Position numbers and translations under genes: made by a program. Below are positions 2,524 through 55,732 of a stretch of 64,000 nt of DNA, piece after piece. The DNA is from Fervidobacterium pennivorans (GTDB lineage Bacteria; Thermotogota; Thermotogae; Thermotogales; Fervidobacteriaceae). The DNA is taken from assembly GCF_001644665.1 (NCBI RefSeq), contig NZ_CP011393.1, positions 952,001-1,016,000 on the forward strand. Direction: 5' to 3'. Position 1 is the stretch's first letter. The number at the start of each line of letters is the position of its first letter. The notes beneath the pieces were generated by a model. It was not told the DNA's origin and searched no databases. It worked only from the letters and a program-made list of their open reading frames with translations.

Positions 2524-3927
2524 TCAAATTTTATCCGTCTTTTCTGACATCACAAGCTCAAAAAGGTCTCTTACATCTTTCACATGCTCTACTTTCAAGT
2601 CCGACTTTGAATTTATGGAGTTGTAATCAACATTAGCTGGGACGATTATTCTTTCTATCTGTAGTTTTTTCGCGTTTTCAATACGCTTTGTAACATTCAC
2701 TGTCGGTCGAATGCTACCGTCTAAACCCACTTCTCCTACCATGAGCGCGTTTCCTATGTAAGAGTCGAGAAAAGACGACAATATCGCACCTGCGATTGCT
2801 AATTCACAACCGGGGTCAGTTATATTCAATCCTCCAGAAACATTTATATATATATCGTGAAAATCCAGAGGCAAGTTCAGGTGCTTTGCTAAGACAGCAG
2901 ATATTATTATGACCTTTCTGACATCTATACCATGCGAGATTCTCCTTCCGGAAGCCATCTTTACTCTGGACACAAGTGCCTGAATCTGAACATTCAAAGG
3001 TCTACTTCCCTCAAAGACACTGGTAAAAACGTTTCCTGGAGTGTTTGAATAGTTCAACAATATATCCTCAGGTAAGCTTTTTAATCCTTCTTGAGTCATT
3101 TGGAAGACGGAGATTTCACCACTGGGACCGTATCTATTCTTTTGAACTCTTAGGATCCTGTAATCAGTTGTTCTTTCACCTTCGAAATATATCACAGTAT
3201 CAACAACGTGTTCAACGAGCTTTGGTCCTGCTATAACTCCTTCTTTAGTAACATGTGCAATAAGCAAGGAAGGAATGTTGTACTTCTTTGAAAAAATTCT
3301 AACTTTTTCGACAACAGCTTTTATCTGGACAACGCCACCGACAGGGGAATCTATATCAACGCTGCTGAGTGTCTGTATCGAGTCAATAACAATTAGTCTT
3401 GCTTTTTGTGGGTCTATGTTGCTGAGGATATCTTCTATTTGTGTTTCGGAAGAAATTAAAATTCTTGGATTTTTAATTCCTAATCTCTTGGCGCGACTTG
3501 CTACTTGCTGAACGCTCTCTTCACCCGATATATAATAAACAACATGGTCTTCCCTTTCGTTACTTTTAGCCGTAGCATCGCATATTTGAAGTGCCAAAGT
3601 ACTCTTACCAACGCCTGGTTCCCCACCGAGCAATACGACTTGTCCTCGGACTAATCCGCCATTCAACAGCTGGTCAACTGCTGGAATGTTTGTTTTGATT
3701 CTCTCTTCTTCAGATCTTTCAAGGGCTGTATGCAAATCAAAAAAGCGAGGATGAGATTCCATCATCCCCGCATCTTGAGACCTAATGTTTTTTGCTTCCG
3801 TTGAAGCATCCTTTAGTTGAAATTCCTTTGCGCTGTTCCATTCACCGCAAACTGGGCAACGTCCAAACCATTTCGGTGACTCGTAACCGCACTTATCACA
3901 TACGTAGATAGTTTTTGTTTTTGGCAT
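2524..3927 (-). CDS. radA: DNA repair protein RadA (Sms)
   Basis: Full-length RadA, 467 residues. It has an N-terminal four-cysteine zinc finger (C10, C13, C24, C27), a RecA-like ATPase core with Walker [11 protein letters not shown] at 101-110, the RadA-specific KNRxG motif (as KNRYG, near residue 256), and a C-terminal Lon-like domain that lacks protease activity in this family. RadA is a branch-migration helicase acting with RecA in recombinational repair. The ATG at 3927 has AAGGTGA upstream. It is followed by degV with a 30-base gap and is probably co-transcribed. Confidence 0.97.
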   Translation of the reverse strand: MPKTKTIYVCDKCGYESPKWFGRCPVCGEWNSAKEFQLKDASTEAKNIRSQDAGMMESHPRFFDLHTALERSEEERIKTNIPAVDQLLNGGLVRGQVVLLGGEPGVGKSTLALQICDATAKSNEREDHVVYYISGEESVQQVASRAKRLGIKNPRILISSETQIEDILSNIDPQKARLIVIDSIQTLSSVDIDSPVGGVVQIKAVVEKVRIFSKKYNIPSLLIAHVTKEGVIAGPKLVEHVVDTVIYFEGERTTDYRILRVQKNRYGPSGEISVFQMTQEGLKSLPEDILLNYSNTPGNVFTSVFEGSRPLNVQIQALVSRVKMASGRRISHGIDVRKVIIISAVLAKHLNLPLDFHDIYINVSGGLNITDPGCELAIAGAILSSFLDSYIGNALMVGEVGLDGSIRPTVNVTKRIENAKKLQIERIIVPANVDYNSINSKSDLKVEHVKDVRDLFELVMSEKTDKI

Positions 3928-50160: not shown

Positions 50161-50739
50161 ATGGGGACCTTTGAAACGAAAGGTTTTGTCAATATTGGAA
50201 GTGTTGAAATAGAGTTCATTGTTGGAGATATAACAAAATTAGATGTAGATGCTATTGTAAATGCTGCGAATTCTTACTTGCAACACGGTGGAGGTGTTGC
50301 AGGTGCTATATCACAGGCTGGAGGTCCTGAAATCCAAAAAGAGAGTGATGAGTATGTAAGAAAAAACGGGCTTGTTCCTCCCGGAGGCGTGGCTGTAACA
50401 GGAGCTGGGAATTTGAAAGCAAAGTATGTTATACACACTGTTGGACCGATAGGAAACAAGAAAGGTAACGACGAAATTATGAAAAAGGCTTTCGAGAATG
50501 TATTCTCGAAAGCCGATGAATTAGCGATAAATTCTATTGCAATTCCTTTCGTTGGGACTGGAATCTTTGGTTATCCTCTCGAGAATTTCATTAAGGTTTG
50601 TGTAGATGAAACATTAAGGTTCTTTTCAAACTACAAAGGCTCGATAAAATTAGTTGTTTTTTGCGACATAGATAGTTCAAAGGTTCAGAAGCTGTTTGAA
50701 ACTTTTGAAAATAACTCTAAGCATTTTAAGCAACCCTAG
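50161..50739 (+). CDS. Macrodomain protein (ADP-ribose/O-acetyl-ADP-ribose processing)
   Basis: A 192-residue stand-alone macrodomain. GDITKLDVDAIVNAANSYLQHGGGVAGAI is the ADP-ribose-binding and catalytic Asn/Asp region; the later GTGIFGYP loop contacts the distal ribose. It probably removes ADP-ribose from proteins or hydrolyses O-acetyl-ADP-ribose. The ATG at 50161 is preceded by GGGAGG; the frame opens at 50137. It follows rarA by 34 bases and converges with a 4-base overlap on the SUMF1/PDZ gene. Confidence 0.93.
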   Translation: MGTFETKGFVNIGSVEIEFIVGDITKLDVDAIVNAANSYLQHGGGVAGAISQAGGPEIQKESDEYVRKNGLVPPGGVAVTGAGNLKAKYVIHTVGPIGNKKGNDEIMKKAFENVFSKADELAINSIAIPFVGTGIFGYPLENFIKVCVDETLRFFSNYKGSIKLVVFCDIDSSKVQKLFETFENNSKHFKQP

Positions 50740-52706
50740 AACAACCAAATTCCCAGTCTAACTTTTATTTCTATCACTTTTCCCCCTCTATCAATTGTGA
50801 GGGTTGAAATATCACCTTGCTTTTTTCCGGATAACGCCTTTAGAGCATCATCAAATGATTTCACGGTTTTTCCATCGATTTTTACTATTACATCACCAAT
50901 TTTGATACCCGCGAGTTGTGCAGGTGAACCTGTCTCTACAAAAGCTACGTAAAGACCTTCTGATTTTACGTTGTACTGTTTCTTAACATTCTCATTTACA
51001 ACAAACCATGTAATTCCCAACAGCTTGTTGTTAAGAGGTTTTTTGATTATGTTAAATGCTTCTTCTGCATCCATTACAACTCTAAAGGTTACGTCATTTC
51101 TTGGTTCCGATGGTGTTAAAGGAATTCTATCTGTAATTCTTCCAGCTACGGCACCCGCTCTCCCAACGACGTATGTTCCAGTGGTATTCAACGGGTTTTC
51201 CTTAGGAAGCTTTTTGTAGGCATCCTTTGCATAGTAATCTCTGCACAATTCAATAGGGTAACCGTAAGTATTTACAACCCCGTAAGGCGATATATCTACG
51301 TTTTCAAACTCATCCACTGTATAATCTCTTCTTCCATCGTTGTACTTAGTCTGGCTTTCGTTACCCCAAGGATATCTTCTTCCATCCGTACCTCGAGCTG
51401 CCTTCTCCCATTGTGCTTCCGTTGGAAGCTGGTATCCTGCCCAATCACAATATGCTTTTGCTGAAGCGTAATTTATACCGGTTATCGGAACATTCAATAA
51501 ATCACCTGGAGCGGAATAACTTACTCTAACTTTTTGACCTAGAAAATCTATCTCAACAGGGTTTATCTGTTTTCCAACAATGATGGAAGACCCCGTCTGT
51601 GAAGCTTTCAGAAAATCAAGATACTGTTTCACAGTAACAGGGTATTTAGATATGTAGAACGATGAAACATAAACTTCACGTTGGGGGAGTTCATCTTCTT
51701 CAACATTTCTCCAAGACGCATCTGCCCCCATTTTAAACACTCCGCCGGGAACAAGAACAAAAGTTACTCCTGTTCTTGGGTCAACGATTTCTTTAGGGTA
51801 GATATTTATCTTTCTAACCTCTTTGCCTTCCACTTTTACAGGAACATCAGCGACAATCGTTGCCACACCGTCCTTATCGTATATAGCTTTTTCTATGATT
51901 GTAGCAATAGATTCGACCTTTGTTTGCTGAGTGGGTTGAACATATTGGACAATTTGAGAAGGTTGTTCTTTCGTTTCTTTGTAAGTAGAAAATACAATAT
52001 CATTTTGATTGACAACAACTTTACCCCACTGTCCAGAAATTTCATATTGTGTGTCTGAAAATTTCTTAACTACGCCGTAGAGTTTTCGTCCAGTATTAAG
52101 AACAACCAAGTCGTAACTTTTGGCGTATTTGTAAGGGATATAAATGTATTCCAGTGCACCTTTTAGTATGAAAAATGTATTTTTGTAACTGTCTACTATA
52201 GTAATATAGTCGCCACTTGTATTCAATTCAAGCCCAACAATCATTTCCCCATTAATTAGAGAGCATATGTAGTAATCGTTGAGTACTAGTTCAACCTGGA
52301 AGAAAGATTCTGATGTAATGCCAGGTAATTCCGCTTTCTCAAAACCCAGGAAATCCACACTATCTGATTTCAGGTTTATCTTAATTTTTCCAAACCATGT
52401 TGTGACCACCGCATAATCTTTGGATAGTTCGGTTACATAACCACGGTATCTTTTGCCGCTGAGGGAAAATTCTTGACCGCTCTGCGGTATTGTTCCATTT
52501 TTAAAAACTATGCTTCGGATATTAGATACCGGAATCTGTATCTTACCAAGTGTAGTATTTAGAACTACGTAGTTACTGTTCGAATCTTCTATAGTACCTT
52601 CAAGAGTTGAACCGTCTCTGTAAACCACAATGATGGCAAAAACTTCTGATAATAATAACAGCATCGCCACAAGGAAAATTGATAAAACGCTTATCCGAGT
52701 TCTCAT
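50736..52706 (-). CDS. Secreted SUMF1-like protein with Sm-like repeats and a PDZ domain
   Basis: A 656-residue exported protein. After the signal peptide (LSIFLVAMLLLLSEVFA) come about four short beta repeats of SH3/Sm-like type (for example STLEGTIEDSNSNYVVLNTT then GKIQIPVSNIRSIVF). Residues about 310-560 form a formylglycine-generating-enzyme-like (SUMF1) domain, and the C-terminus is a PDZ domain (GSPAQLAGIKIGDVIVKIDGKTV). The two catalytic cysteines and RGGSW motif of true FGE are not present, so it is likely a binding protein. The ATG at 52706 follows GGGAGG; the frame opens at 52730. Confidence 0.82.
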   Translation of the reverse strand: MRTRISVLSIFLVAMLLLLSEVFAIIVVYRDGSTLEGTIEDSNSNYVVLNTTLGKIQIPVSNIRSIVFKNGTIPQSGQEFSLSGKRYRGYVTELSKDYAVVTTWFGKIKINLKSDSVDFLGFEKAELPGITSESFFQVELVLNDYYICSLINGEMIVGLELNTSGDYITIVDSYKNTFFILKGALEYIYIPYKYAKSYDLVVLNTGRKLYGVVKKFSDTQYEISGQWGKVVVNQNDIVFSTYKETKEQPSQIVQYVQPTQQTKVESIATIIEKAIYDKDGVATIVADVPVKVEGKEVRKINIYPKEIVDPRTGVTFVLVPGGVFKMGADASWRNVEEDELPQREVYVSSFYISKYPVTVKQYLDFLKASQTGSSIIVGKQINPVEIDFLGQKVRVSYSAPGDLLNVPITGINYASAKAYCDWAGYQLPTEAQWEKAARGTDGRRYPWGNESQTKYNDGRRDYTVDEFENVDISPYGVVNTYGYPIELCRDYYAKDAYKKLPKENPLNTTGTYVVGRAGAVAGRITDRIPLTPSEPRNDVTFRVVMDAEEAFNIIKKPLNNKLLGITWFVVNENVKKQYNVKSEGLYVAFVETGSPAQLAGIKIGDVIVKIDGKTVKSFDDALKALSGKKQGDISTLTIDRGGKVIEIKVRLGIWLF

Positions 52707-52865
52707 AGTTTCTACCTCCCTCGATTGCACGTCGCATTACATTGAAATTATATCAAACTTTTGAAAAAACTTATTCACTTTAAGGAAGAATTTGTGATAA
52801 AATATGTTTGAATATTACATAAAACAAAATCAAAAATTCAAAATTAAGATCGTGAGGACCAAAAC

Positions 52866-53354
52866 ATGATGAAGAAACAACTAACAATTATCATTTTCTA
52901 CATTATTTTGTTATCATTTTCTACATATCATGCAAAGGCATCTAACACCAAGGAAATTAGAAGTGATTCCAAATCAACTTATTGGTTCTCAATTTTTTAC
53001 AGTGAAAGACTCTGGAAGGTTGATAGAAATGGTCGTATATATGACATCTACCCAAATGATGATATGGCAGTTTTAATGGCAGGTCCTTTCGTAACAGGCT
53101 TAGATGTTGATATCACTGAAGGTAGAGTCACTAGTCCATTTTTAAAGTACTTACCCCCGACAATACCATTGGGCGTTTTCGAAATTAACCTTAAAGAGAA
53201 ATACATTATCACAAAAAATTCAGCAGTGGTCTATATAACAGATATTAGTGATATACAGTCTTGTGTTAATACGCTTGCCTTGATGTGGTATTATATGGAT
53301 TCCAAGAAAATATATCTCTTCAAAAATGGTAGAATTTATAGAATAAAGGGGTGA
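52866..53354 (+). CDS. Minimal FtsQ/DivIB-like protein
   Basis: A 162-residue protein with a signal-anchor helix (LTIIIFYIILLSF) and a small beta domain. LWKVDRNGRIYDI (49-61), a GPFVTGLD turn and the C-terminal DSKKIYLFKNGRIYRI resemble the FtsQ/DivIB beta domain. The POTRA domain that normally precedes it is absent. Its place directly before ftsA-ftsZ is where ftsQ lies in many bacteria. If correct, it would be a membrane divisome protein; the similarity is by eye only. Its stop is 5 bases before the ftsA start. Confidence 0.6.
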   Translation: MMKKQLTIIIFYIILLSFSTYHAKASNTKEIRSDSKSTYWFSIFYSERLWKVDRNGRIYDIYPNDDMAVLMAGPFVTGLDVDITEGRVTSPFLKYLPPTIPLGVFEINLKEKYIITKNSAVVYITDISDIQSCVNTLALMWYYMDSKKIYLFKNGRIYRIKG

Positions 53355-53359
53355 TTATC

Positions 53360-54640
53360 GTGCCTAAATCACGAGAGATTGTTTCTTTGGACATTGGAAA
53401 TGACAGTATCAAAGGTATTGTTGTTGATTTTAGTGAGGGTTATGGCACTGTCTTGGCATTTTCCAATGTGAAAACAAGGGGTATAGAGAACGGTGAAATC
53501 AAAGATGTCGTAGCTTTAAACGAGTCAATGACACAAATAATCGAAGATTTGGAAGACCAGCTCGGTAAAGAACTTAGGGGTGAGTTACTGGTTTCTTCGA
53601 GTTGCGGTGATTTTACTCTTACAGAAATCACTGAGGAGCTTATATTAACTGAGAAAGATGAAGGATATGTTTCTGAAGAACATGTAACGAAGCTAACCGA
53701 TAACTTACTAGCTGATTTATTCCCAAACAATGAGAGAAACTCCCTGCATCTTTTTGTAAAGAAATACGTACTAGATGATAATAAGATAGTTGTCAACCCT
53801 GTTGGAATGAAAGCCAAAAAAATTGCAGCGATTTACACCGTTGTTATGGGCTCTGAAAAATACAGGAACATTGTTGAATACGCCACGAAAGATATCCTTG
53901 GAGAAGCCGAATATTATATCTCATTCGTATCAAATGCCGAAGCTGTGCTTTCAAATGTCGAAAAGGATAGAGGCGTTGTTCACGTGGACTTAGGCTATAA
54001 TTACACAACGGTAACCCTGTACTATGCAAATACACCCCTTGAAATGGAGAGAATAGAGATATCTATGAAAAACGTTTTAAAAGACATAGCAATAGTTCTA
54101 AAGACATCTTTACAAGAGGCGGAAAGACTATTAAAAACATACGGTGTGGCGGTTTACTTAGATATTGAACCCACACCAATCGAATACAAAGGTTTGGATG
54201 GTAGGACTATCCAGCGAACCGATAAAGAATTTTTATCGAGAATAATCTACGCAAGACTTAGGGAAATATTTATGCGGGTAAAGAAACTTTACAAGGATTT
54301 CACGGTGAAATACCCTGATTTTGGAAACATTGGGATTCCTGGTGGAATCGTTTTAACTGGTGGTGGGGCTATGCTCCAGCGAATTGAGACACTCGCAAGC
54401 GAAGTTTTCAAGTGCCCTGTTAGAATCGGAACAGTAGCGGATACAGAAATGTTTAAAGCCGAAGGTGCTGAATTCAATGTATTTACTCCTTTATATGCAG
54501 CTACTTTTGGAAACATAATAGTTTATCAGAAAGAGCAAAACATGTATAGTCCCATGGTAGGTGAAAAAACGAAGAAACGCCAATCAGGAACAGGATTTTT
54601 CAAAAAACTGTCCGAGACCTTCGGAAAAATATTCGGTTGA
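53360..54640 (+). CDS. ftsA: Cell division protein FtsA
   Basis: A 426-residue actin-like protein. The phosphate loop SLDIGNDSIKG and the later DLGYNYTTV and LTGGGAMLQRI match the FtsA/MreB fold. The C-terminal amphipathic helix GFFKKLSETFGKIFG anchors it to the membrane. It links FtsZ to the membrane and to FtsQ-class proteins. The GTG at 53360 is preferred as AAGGGGTGA precedes it by 5 bases; a GTG at 53351 overlaps the ribosome site. The ftsZ gene follows by 30 bases. Confidence 0.96.
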   Translation: MPKSREIVSLDIGNDSIKGIVVDFSEGYGTVLAFSNVKTRGIENGEIKDVVALNESMTQIIEDLEDQLGKELRGELLVSSSCGDFTLTEITEELILTEKDEGYVSEEHVTKLTDNLLADLFPNNERNSLHLFVKKYVLDDNKIVVNPVGMKAKKIAAIYTVVMGSEKYRNIVEYATKDILGEAEYYISFVSNAEAVLSNVEKDRGVVHVDLGYNYTTVTLYYANTPLEMERIEISMKNVLKDIAIVLKTSLQEAERLLKTYGVAVYLDIEPTPIEYKGLDGRTIQRTDKEFLSRIIYARLREIFMRVKKLYKDFTVKYPDFGNIGIPGGIVLTGGGAMLQRIETLASEVFKCPVRIGTVADTEMFKAEGAEFNVFTPLYAATFGNIIVYQKEQNMYSPMVGEKTKKRQSGTGFFKKLSETFGKIFG

Positions 54641-54670: not shown

Positions 54671-55732
54671 ATGCCTTTTATGATAGAAAAGGAGAGCAAA
54701 CAAAGAGATATCGAAAGGATACCAGGTGTTCCTGTTCTGAAAGTGATAGGGGTAGGGGGCGCTGGTTGTAACGCAATTAACAGGATGGCAGAGATGGGAT
54801 TGAAAGGTGTGACATTGATTGCAGTTAATACAGATGCTCAAGTCCTTGATGTAAGTAAAGCAGATATTACCGTACAAATTGGAGAAAAGTTGACAAAAGG
54901 TCTCGGAGCTGGCGGAAATCCAAAAATCGGTGAAGAAGCTGCATTGGAAGACAGGAAAAAGCTTGAGGAAATATTGCATGGTACTGATATGTTGTTTATT
55001 ACTGCAGGATTTGGCGGAGGAACTGGAACTGGAGCCGCACCTGTTATCGCAGAGATAGCCAGGAATTTGGGCATTCTAACCGTCGCAATTATCACAATGC
55101 CTTTCTTTTTTGAAGGCACACCGAGATGGAATGTGGCATTAGAAGGTGTAAAGCGAATCACAGGCAAGGTCGATACACTAATTAAAATAAGCAACAACAA
55201 ACTGCTCGAACAACTATCACCTTCAACAACTATCGTTGATGCGTTTGCAACTGCCGATGAAATTTTGCATCAAGCCGTCCGTGGCATCTCCGACCTTATA
55301 ATGAAGCGTGGTTATATCAACCTTGATTTTGCAGATGTTGAGTCGGTGATGAGAAATGCCGGTAACGCGATGCTTGGAATAGGTGTTGGAAAAGGTGAAA
55401 AGCGAGTCTTTGATGCTGCTAGGAAAGCACTCGATAGCAAGTTCTTAGATTACCCAATTGAAAACGCAAGGTCAATCATTTTGAATATTTCTGCCCCGCG
55501 AAACGCAACATTACAAGAGATGCAAGAAGCAGCAATGATAGTAAAACAAACCTGCAGCGAAGATGCTGATATGAAATTTGGTATGGTAATCGATGATGAG
55601 TTAGCAGATGACGAAATGAGGGTAACCGTAATAGCCACTCGATTCGATGTTGAAGAGAAGTTCGGAAAGTCTGAGGAAGATATACCTGCAATTTATAAGT
55701 TTGGACTTGAATACAAAGGTAGGCAGGATTAA
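54671..55732 (+). CDS. ftsZ: Cell division protein FtsZ
   Basis: A 353-residue tubulin-like GTPase. The GTP loop GGGTGTGAAPVIAEIAR, the VGGAGCNAINRM start, the NLDFADVESVM T7 loop and the DIPAIYKF C-terminal peptide (an FtsA-binding tail variant) are all present. It polymerises into the division ring. It has a strong ribosome site, AAGGAGGG. Confidence 0.98.
   Translation: MPFMIEKESKQRDIERIPGVPVLKVIGVGGAGCNAINRMAEMGLKGVTLIAVNTDAQVLDVSKADITVQIGEKLTKGLGAGGNPKIGEEAALEDRKKLEEILHGTDMLFITAGFGGGTGTGAAPVIAEIARNLGILTVAIITMPFFFEGTPRWNVALEGVKRITGKVDTLIKISNNKLLEQLSPSTTIVDAFATADEILHQAVRGISDLIMKRGYINLDFADVESVMRNAGNAMLGIGVGKGEKRVFDAARKALDSKFLDYPIENARSIILNISAPRNATLQEMQEAAMIVKQTCSEDADMKFGMVIDDELADDEMRVTVIATRFDVEEKFGKSEEDIPAIYKFGLEYKGRQD

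Follow-up and report, generated by a model that had tools for sequence, protein, structure and literature searches.

The gene that directly precedes ftsA and ftsZ in this part of the Fervidobacterium pennivorans genome very probably encodes a descendant of FtsQ without a POTRA domain, in which the beta domain would still scaffold division partners while the POTRA region eroded along the lineage. Because the defining POTRA domain is absent, we file the protein as a variant of FtsQ and not as a plain member. A sequence-only reading had described it as a reduced FtsQ-like protein; beyond this, the gene belongs to a phylum-wide family (Pfam DUF4894) whose POTRA region has been shortened in steps. 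Coordinates below are those of the window, meaning the whole 64,000-nucleotide stretch of DNA analyzed, which lies within a single 2.06-Mb contig.

52866..53354, plus strand: POTRA-less FtsQ-type protein, Pfam DUF4894 relative (ORF of 162 aa, ATG start)
52872..52946, plus strand: N-terminal membrane helix, model residues 3-27 (AlphaFold2 helix)
52977..53351, plus strand: beta domain, residues 38-162, aligned to E. coli FtsQ 127-257 (model and structure alignment)
53310..53345, plus strand: two closing strands, residues 149-153 and 156-160 (AlphaFold2 strands)
53360..54640, plus strand: ftsA (mechanical ORF from 53351; GTG at 53360 is the start by homology)
54671..55732, plus strand: ftsZ (ORF list)

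The gene and its neighborhood

Both motifs named in the sequence-only reading, LWKVDRNGRIYDI and KNGRIYRI, are present in the 162-aa protein, and the gene does occupy the ftsQ position that was claimed for it, with ftsA directly 3' and then ftsZ (54671-55732). The GTG start of ftsA at 53360 lies 5 bases past the stop codon of the FtsQ-type gene, and a GAGG at 52854-52857 could be the ribosome-binding site of the 162-aa ORF. The gene thus heads an ftsQ-ftsA-ftsZ-like row with a divergent gene upstream. The latter is a 664-aa ORF on the minus strand (50736-52730), whose product presumably resembles a sulfatase-modifying-factor domain with a C-terminal PDZ domain. A promoter scan of 52600-52960 returned four sites, one of them at 52774-52803 on the plus strand, versus 1.5 (standard deviation, 1.4) in shuffled sequence, and was not used as evidence.

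We found homologous ORFs in 19 of the 20 genomes searched in the window gene's own family and therefore regard the 162-aa ORF as a real gene; the genome lacking one (G006) is 81% complete. Of these 19 loci, 18 continue with an ftsA-type ORF longer than 200 aa; the last (L005) shows the same ftsA-type start where the locus ends. Compared with its closest relative over 161 codons, the window gene has a dN of 0.12 and a dS of 0.45, indicating purifying selection.

The predicted fold is that of the FtsQ/DivIB beta domain

An AlphaFold2 model (window protein plus five relatives) reached a mean pLDDT of 80.1, with block means of 83 to 95 over residues 41-160, except for residues 61-70 (56). The signal anchor proposed from sequence appears in the model as an N-terminal membrane helix at residues 3-27; numbered from the second ATG, the strongest 19-residue hydropathy window covers residues 4-22, and each of 40 proteins measured has an N-terminal 19-residue window with a mean hydropathy of 1.5 to 3.2. 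The helix is followed by strands at 39-45, 48-53, 57-60, and 75-77 and then a short helix, while the C-terminal half contains strands at 104-108, 113-116, and 121-124, a long helix at 127-143, and closing strands at 149-153 and 156-160. Modeled alone, the beta domain gave a pLDDT of 85.9 and a pTM of 0.82.

When the whole model was compared by VIA-align with 586 chains from the Foldseek list, the top seven entries (6h9o, 8hhf, 5z2w, 2vh2, 8bh1, 1yr1, and 8p1u) were all FtsQ/DivIB, with Z scores from 6.7 to 3.6 versus 2.2 for the next row, and residues 38-162 of the model superposed on residues 127-257 of E. coli FtsQ in 8hhf. The domain alone, compared with 745 chains, again placed FtsQ/DivIB in the top seven rows (Z, 6.7 to 3.7, versus 2.5 for the next), with 117 of 130 residues aligned to E. 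coli FtsQ 123-257. Foldseek with the domain alone gave DivIB 1yr1 as its best hit, at a probability of 0.99 and an E value of 0.014 (0.81 for the runner-up), and with the whole model it placed no FtsQ among its best 50 rows (best E, 1.3). Because the alignment tool's own note rates Z scores of 6 to 7 as middling, we put the weight on the gap to the other rows and on coverage. The small beta domain of the sequence-only reading is therefore predicted to have the FtsQ/DivIB fold, by VIA-align and by Foldseek with the domain alone; an unrelated fold would have spoken against that reading, and FtsQ/DivIB were the only rows that stood out.

The protein has no space for a POTRA domain

The absence of POTRA claimed from sequence was upheld: 15 residues separate the membrane helix from the beta domain, and POTRA_1 has no match in the genome at E ≤ 1. 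We considered a POTRA domain hidden upstream or behind a frameshift. The reading frame is open for only 6 codons upstream of the ATG, and 135 bases lie between the ATG and the divergent upstream ORF, whereas the POTRA_1 model, with its 69 positions, would take up about 207; there being no room, we dropped this idea.

No full FtsQ was detected elsewhere in the same genome with probes of limited sensitivity, which gave zero matches to PF03799 at E ≤ 10 and zero to POTRA_1 (PF08478) at E ≤ 1; PF03799 is an insensitive probe, being positive in only 6 of 14 control genomes. The DUF4894 profile matched at the window gene (E, 1.2e-5) and at one other place only (E, 0.32), and the profile of the gene's own family (alignment A1) had the window gene as its one match.

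The profile search against FtsQ/DivIB that had been suggested as a check did not recognize the protein: PF03799 picked out neither it nor its relatives over the cut-off. In 103 Thermotogota genomes PF03799 gave six with a match at E ≤ 10, none over the cut-off and none at the FtsQ-type gene. One of the six (L032) lies in a 176-aa frame that is not the FtsQ-type gene and looks to us like a glycerol antiterminator-type protein. Run directly on 44 members from the phylum, PF03799 matched 3 at E ≤ 1 (best, 0.0028), and on the G020 protein it scored 19 bits versus a cut-off of 21. Sequence searches of the PDB with alignments A1, A3, and A4 returned no FtsQ, and when A3 and A4 were aligned by hhalign to E. 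coli FtsQ as a single sequence, the probabilities were 0.3% and 0.1%; the A4 alignment to E. coli FtsQ was collinear over 124 columns and not significant. NCBIfam assigned no family to five proteins, and a first scan of genome contigs with the window protein as the query found no relative.

Profile comparison links the short protein to long forms

The window protein matches DUF4894 (PF16235) over profile positions 2-122 of 122 with 26.1 bits (cut-off, 28; E, 1.2e-5). Among members of its own family, DUF4894 matched 16 of 19 at E ≤ 10 (best, 6.5e-13).

POTRA_1 exceeded its cut-off in 2 of 103 genomes, G023 and G100. The G100 match lies in a 785-aa frame elsewhere and was set aside as not belonging to the FtsQ-type gene. 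In G023, of family f6, POTRA_1 scored 24.1 bits (cut-off, 23) in the same ORF as DUF4894, and in G022, also of f6, 21.2 bits (cut-off, 23), again in the DUF4894 ORF; after trimming, the G023 protein scored 22.8 bits and the G022 protein 19.4, versus the same cut-off of 23. In these ORFs the DUF4894 domain comes after the POTRA_1 match. Because weak POTRA_1 matches at E ≤ 1 are widespread and also arise by chance (13 of 14 control genomes), we gave weight to their place inside the DUF4894 ORF. The gene order is murC-murB-FtsQ-type gene-ftsA-ftsZ in G022 and murB-FtsQ-type gene-ftsA-ftsZ in G023, with the mur genes named by reading, and this is the canonical place of ftsQ.

We then compared two profiles. 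A7 holds 18 forms of six families (16 short and 2 intermediate, with the window protein first), and A4 holds 12 long forms of families f4, f5, f6, and f8, 2 of which have a POTRA_1 match. The two matched with a probability of 98.3% (E, 1.5e-14; 124 columns), pairing window protein residues 36-160 with residues 102-235 of the G022 protein, past its POTRA region; A1 alone against A4 gave a weaker match (39.8%; E, 3e-4). The homology that the sequence-only reading had left conditional is thus supplied as common descent with long forms, two of them with a POTRA match.

Gene order agrees: ftsA comes next in 31 of 31 regions fetched outside family f8 and in 14 of 14 further regions of family f10. 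In f8, ftsA follows the FtsQ-type gene in 0 of 9 regions.

Several observations concern the gene on the other side. Of 40 regions, 37 (L106-L123 and L125-L143) have a gyrB-like gene ahead of the FtsQ-type gene; the exceptions are the two f6 regions and the region of the window. The f8 genes (L106-L113, L128, and L215) still lie after gyrB, with 9 of 9 regions lacking ftsA next, and in G034 (f8) ftsA-ftsZ is on a different contig from the FtsQ-type gene. Such a link between gyrase and division genes is unusual.

DUF4894 in Thermotogota

Across the phylum, DUF4894 matched 41 of 44 members at E ≤ 1. In the 103 Thermotogota genomes it gave a match at E ≤ 1 in 90, and over the cut-off in 63; with DUF4894, family profiles, and gene order taken together, 101 of 103 genomes have an FtsQ-type gene. 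This count includes a G034 copy cut by a contig end; G030, G033, and G102, with E values of only 0.09, 0.06, and 0.07 for DUF4894, counted by position and alignment; and 14 f10 genomes counted by position and because their alignment, A6, matched in a profile comparison (96.4%; E, 1.4e-9). The two genomes without the gene, G006 and G050, are 81% and 78% complete.

Because the f6 ORFs join a POTRA match to DUF4894 and the profiles of short and long forms match each other, DUF4894 is very likely the FtsQ beta domain of Thermotogota. Pfam assigns DUF4894 no function, and a literature search, mostly of freely accessible papers, found none that names it. Nor did we find an account of a POTRA-less FtsQ in Thermotogota, judging by titles and the openings of abstracts in a search that mostly left out the subscription literature. 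A study of the dcw cluster distributed ftsQ among 24 orthologous groups, whose merging relied in part on a location upstream of ftsA, and had a tree from which Thermotogae were absent (PMC8871954).

The POTRA region was probably shortened in steps

We measured the interval from the best hydrophobic window to the start of the beta domain in 44 aligned proteins. It is long in families f7 (71 to 94 residues), f6 (71 to 75), f4 (72), f8 (68), and f5 (66), intermediate in f9 (54 to 59), and short in f3 (10 to 51), f10 (18 to 19), f11 (13 to 15), f2 (10 to 14), and f1 (14 to 23), with the window protein at 15. POTRA_1 recognizes only f6 (2 of 44 proteins); length and alignment suggest that the other long families carry a POTRA domain as well.

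A tree of FtsA and FtsZ, rooted on E. coli, was built from 46 rows: E. coli itself and 45 genomes chosen to represent the 103. Family f6 branches first, and f8, f4-f5, and f7 come next in an unsettled order. All shortened forms share one branch, with a support of 90, under the starred level of 95. The passage from long to shortened forms takes one change on this tree, and the three length classes take three. In this tree f8 is one row (G034) with a truncated ftsQ of its own, so that its long state is taken from sibling genomes; for nine f10 rows the short state is based on ORF length rather than on a measured interval; the tree omits five of the 14 f10 genomes that were found late; and two rows lack FtsZ, with some others having partial FtsZ. 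Since f6 branches first and the shortened forms share one branch, POTRA was probably ancestral in Thermotogota and then shrank, with later shortenings occurring more than once.

FtsK and the division partners

FtsK-dependent recruitment of E. coli FtsQ is believed to require the alpha (POTRA) domain together with the membrane helix (PMC6134095). Searching for FtsK/SpoIIIE (PF01580) with a threshold of E ≤ 1e-5, we saw none in any of the 82 good genomes, among the matches listed (in most genomes, the first 25 candidates scored), and in all 103 genomes one weak partial match, in G033 (f8), again among those listed. Loss of FtsK as the sole cause of POTRA loss was rejected: the long-form families, too, have no FtsK match over the threshold except the weak one in G033, and FtsK loss therefore cannot alone explain the loss of POTRA. 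It may have allowed POTRA loss without forcing it.

In the same source, FtsB contributes a strand that joins the last one of the FtsQ beta domain, and residues 257-276 of E. coli FtsQ are described as dispensable (PMC6134095). By analogy, the closing strand of the window protein, just before its C terminus, may be the counterpart of the FtsB-binding edge.

The genome of the window encodes a row of rsmH, an 89-aa FtsL-like protein, and a PBP and a second row of ftsW-murG-murC (names by reading), with three transpeptidase and two SEDS matches. The 89-aa ORF (3414-3683 on the reverse strand of G000:C1:1629000-1638000, L230), a membrane helix plus coil, lies between rsmH and a 596-aa PBP; a 95-aa ORF of the same make occupies the corresponding place in G077 (L158). 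Both are likely unrecognized FtsL proteins. A small membrane-helix-plus-coil protein of 111 aa from the same genome as the window, encoded at 2887-3222 of L154 (G000:C1:1606000-1612000), is a candidate FtsB/DivIC, as are similar ORFs of about 75 to 115 aa in L155-L157, L159, L160, L163-L165, and L168; several ORFs of this type precede a protein starting like VVTTSHKPSKEQ.

FtsB/DivIC exceeded the cut-off in only 1 of 103 genomes, G073. There a canonical DivIC lies on contig C49 (L166), near an ORF that we take to be YabQ-like, and this is probably a contaminating clostridial contig. At E ≤ 0.1, PF04977 also hit 100 of 103 genomes, with many of the matches in long unrelated frames; these were not counted as FtsB.

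Discussion

We propose that the window protein most likely does the job of FtsQ without a POTRA domain. Anchored by the N-terminal membrane helix, a single FtsQ/DivIB-type beta domain would sit on the outer side of the cytoplasmic membrane, and this domain, judging by its known role, would hold FtsB/FtsL-type partners of the FtsW-FtsI septal wall synthase. A short protein would thereby join the division complex and link an FtsL/FtsB-type pair to FtsW-FtsI without POTRA-based recruitment, reaching the division ring instead by way of its membrane helix and its beta domain. A POTRA domain would have been present in the ancestral Thermotogota protein and have shrunk along the lineage, perhaps after the loss of FtsK, the presumed recruiter in E. 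coli. In function, the protein would then approach the "minimal FtsQ core" of the sequence-only reading.

A descendant of FtsQ could instead have changed its function, keeping the beta domain, losing the scaffolding of FtsL and FtsB, and taking up, for example, an FtsA-linked or wall-sensing role. That DivIC/FtsB passes the cut-off in a single genome, that the sequence has diverged so far that FtsQ models miss it, and that the f8 gene stands apart from ftsA would all fit such a change. We consider it unlikely, since ftsA comes next in every region outside f8 (31 of 31, and 14 of 14 further f10 regions), the gene is kept in 101 of 103 genomes, and FtsL-like, FtsI-like, and FtsW-like genes in the same genome imply that a connector is still needed.

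The profile match between short and long forms (98.3%; E, 1.5e-14) already makes it very improbable that this is an unrelated small membrane protein, with a beta domain that came to resemble FtsQ by convergence and a chance place before ftsA. The middling Z scores and the failure of the window protein on its own to match FtsQ significantly by sequence would suit convergence; against it stand the like strand order, the fact that FtsQ/DivIB were the only structural matches to stand out, and the homology that the profiles show with the long forms. In two of those, the interval preceding ftsA contains a POTRA match. More improbable yet is a two-part FtsQ in which another protein supplies the POTRA function in trans. 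POTRA_1 has low power here, and the POTRA-sized regions of f4, f5, f7, and f8 escape it, so that a partner could be missed; no such protein was found, however, with zero POTRA_1 matches at E ≤ 1 in the genome, and the graded shortening resembles erosion rather than a gene split.

Returning to a POTRA-less FtsQ, we lean toward a broader reading in which Thermotogota divide without FtsK or a canonical FtsB and the window lineage does so with an FtsQ made of a helix and a beta domain; the beta domain by itself would then be the minimal FtsQ found in nature, and POTRA would be a recruitment module that the cell could dispense with and that disappeared once its recruiter was gone. With 0 of 103 Thermotogota genomes reaching the FtsQ Pfam cut-off, DUF4894 as the FtsQ beta domain would fill the FtsQ slot of the phylum. 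It would also let the change from long forms with POTRA to forms without it be followed as an evolutionary series, making testable which part of FtsQ is indispensable and whether POTRA is only a docking site for FtsK-type recruiters.

Among known systems, Pfam DUF4894 is one of the closest: the window protein spans nearly the whole profile and falls just under the cut-off (26.1 versus 28 bits). Chlamydia FtsQ (Ct764) is described as a homologue without an identifiable POTRA domain (PMC4643143), and in this it is like the window protein. Chlamydial FtsQ has 268 aa and a large periplasmic part (PMC9846249) and therefore has a POTRA-sized region that goes unrecognized, whereas the window protein has no room for one. 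Unlike FtsQ/DivIB generally, the window protein lacks POTRA, has 15 residues from helix to beta domain, and is missed by FtsQ sequence models, and it has 162 aa compared with 276 aa for E. coli FtsQ. Like FtsQ of E. coli, Yersinia, and Pseudomonas and DivIB of Geobacillus, it has a membrane helix and a beta domain that superposes on theirs, and, as in E. coli, its gene lies directly before ftsA-ftsZ.
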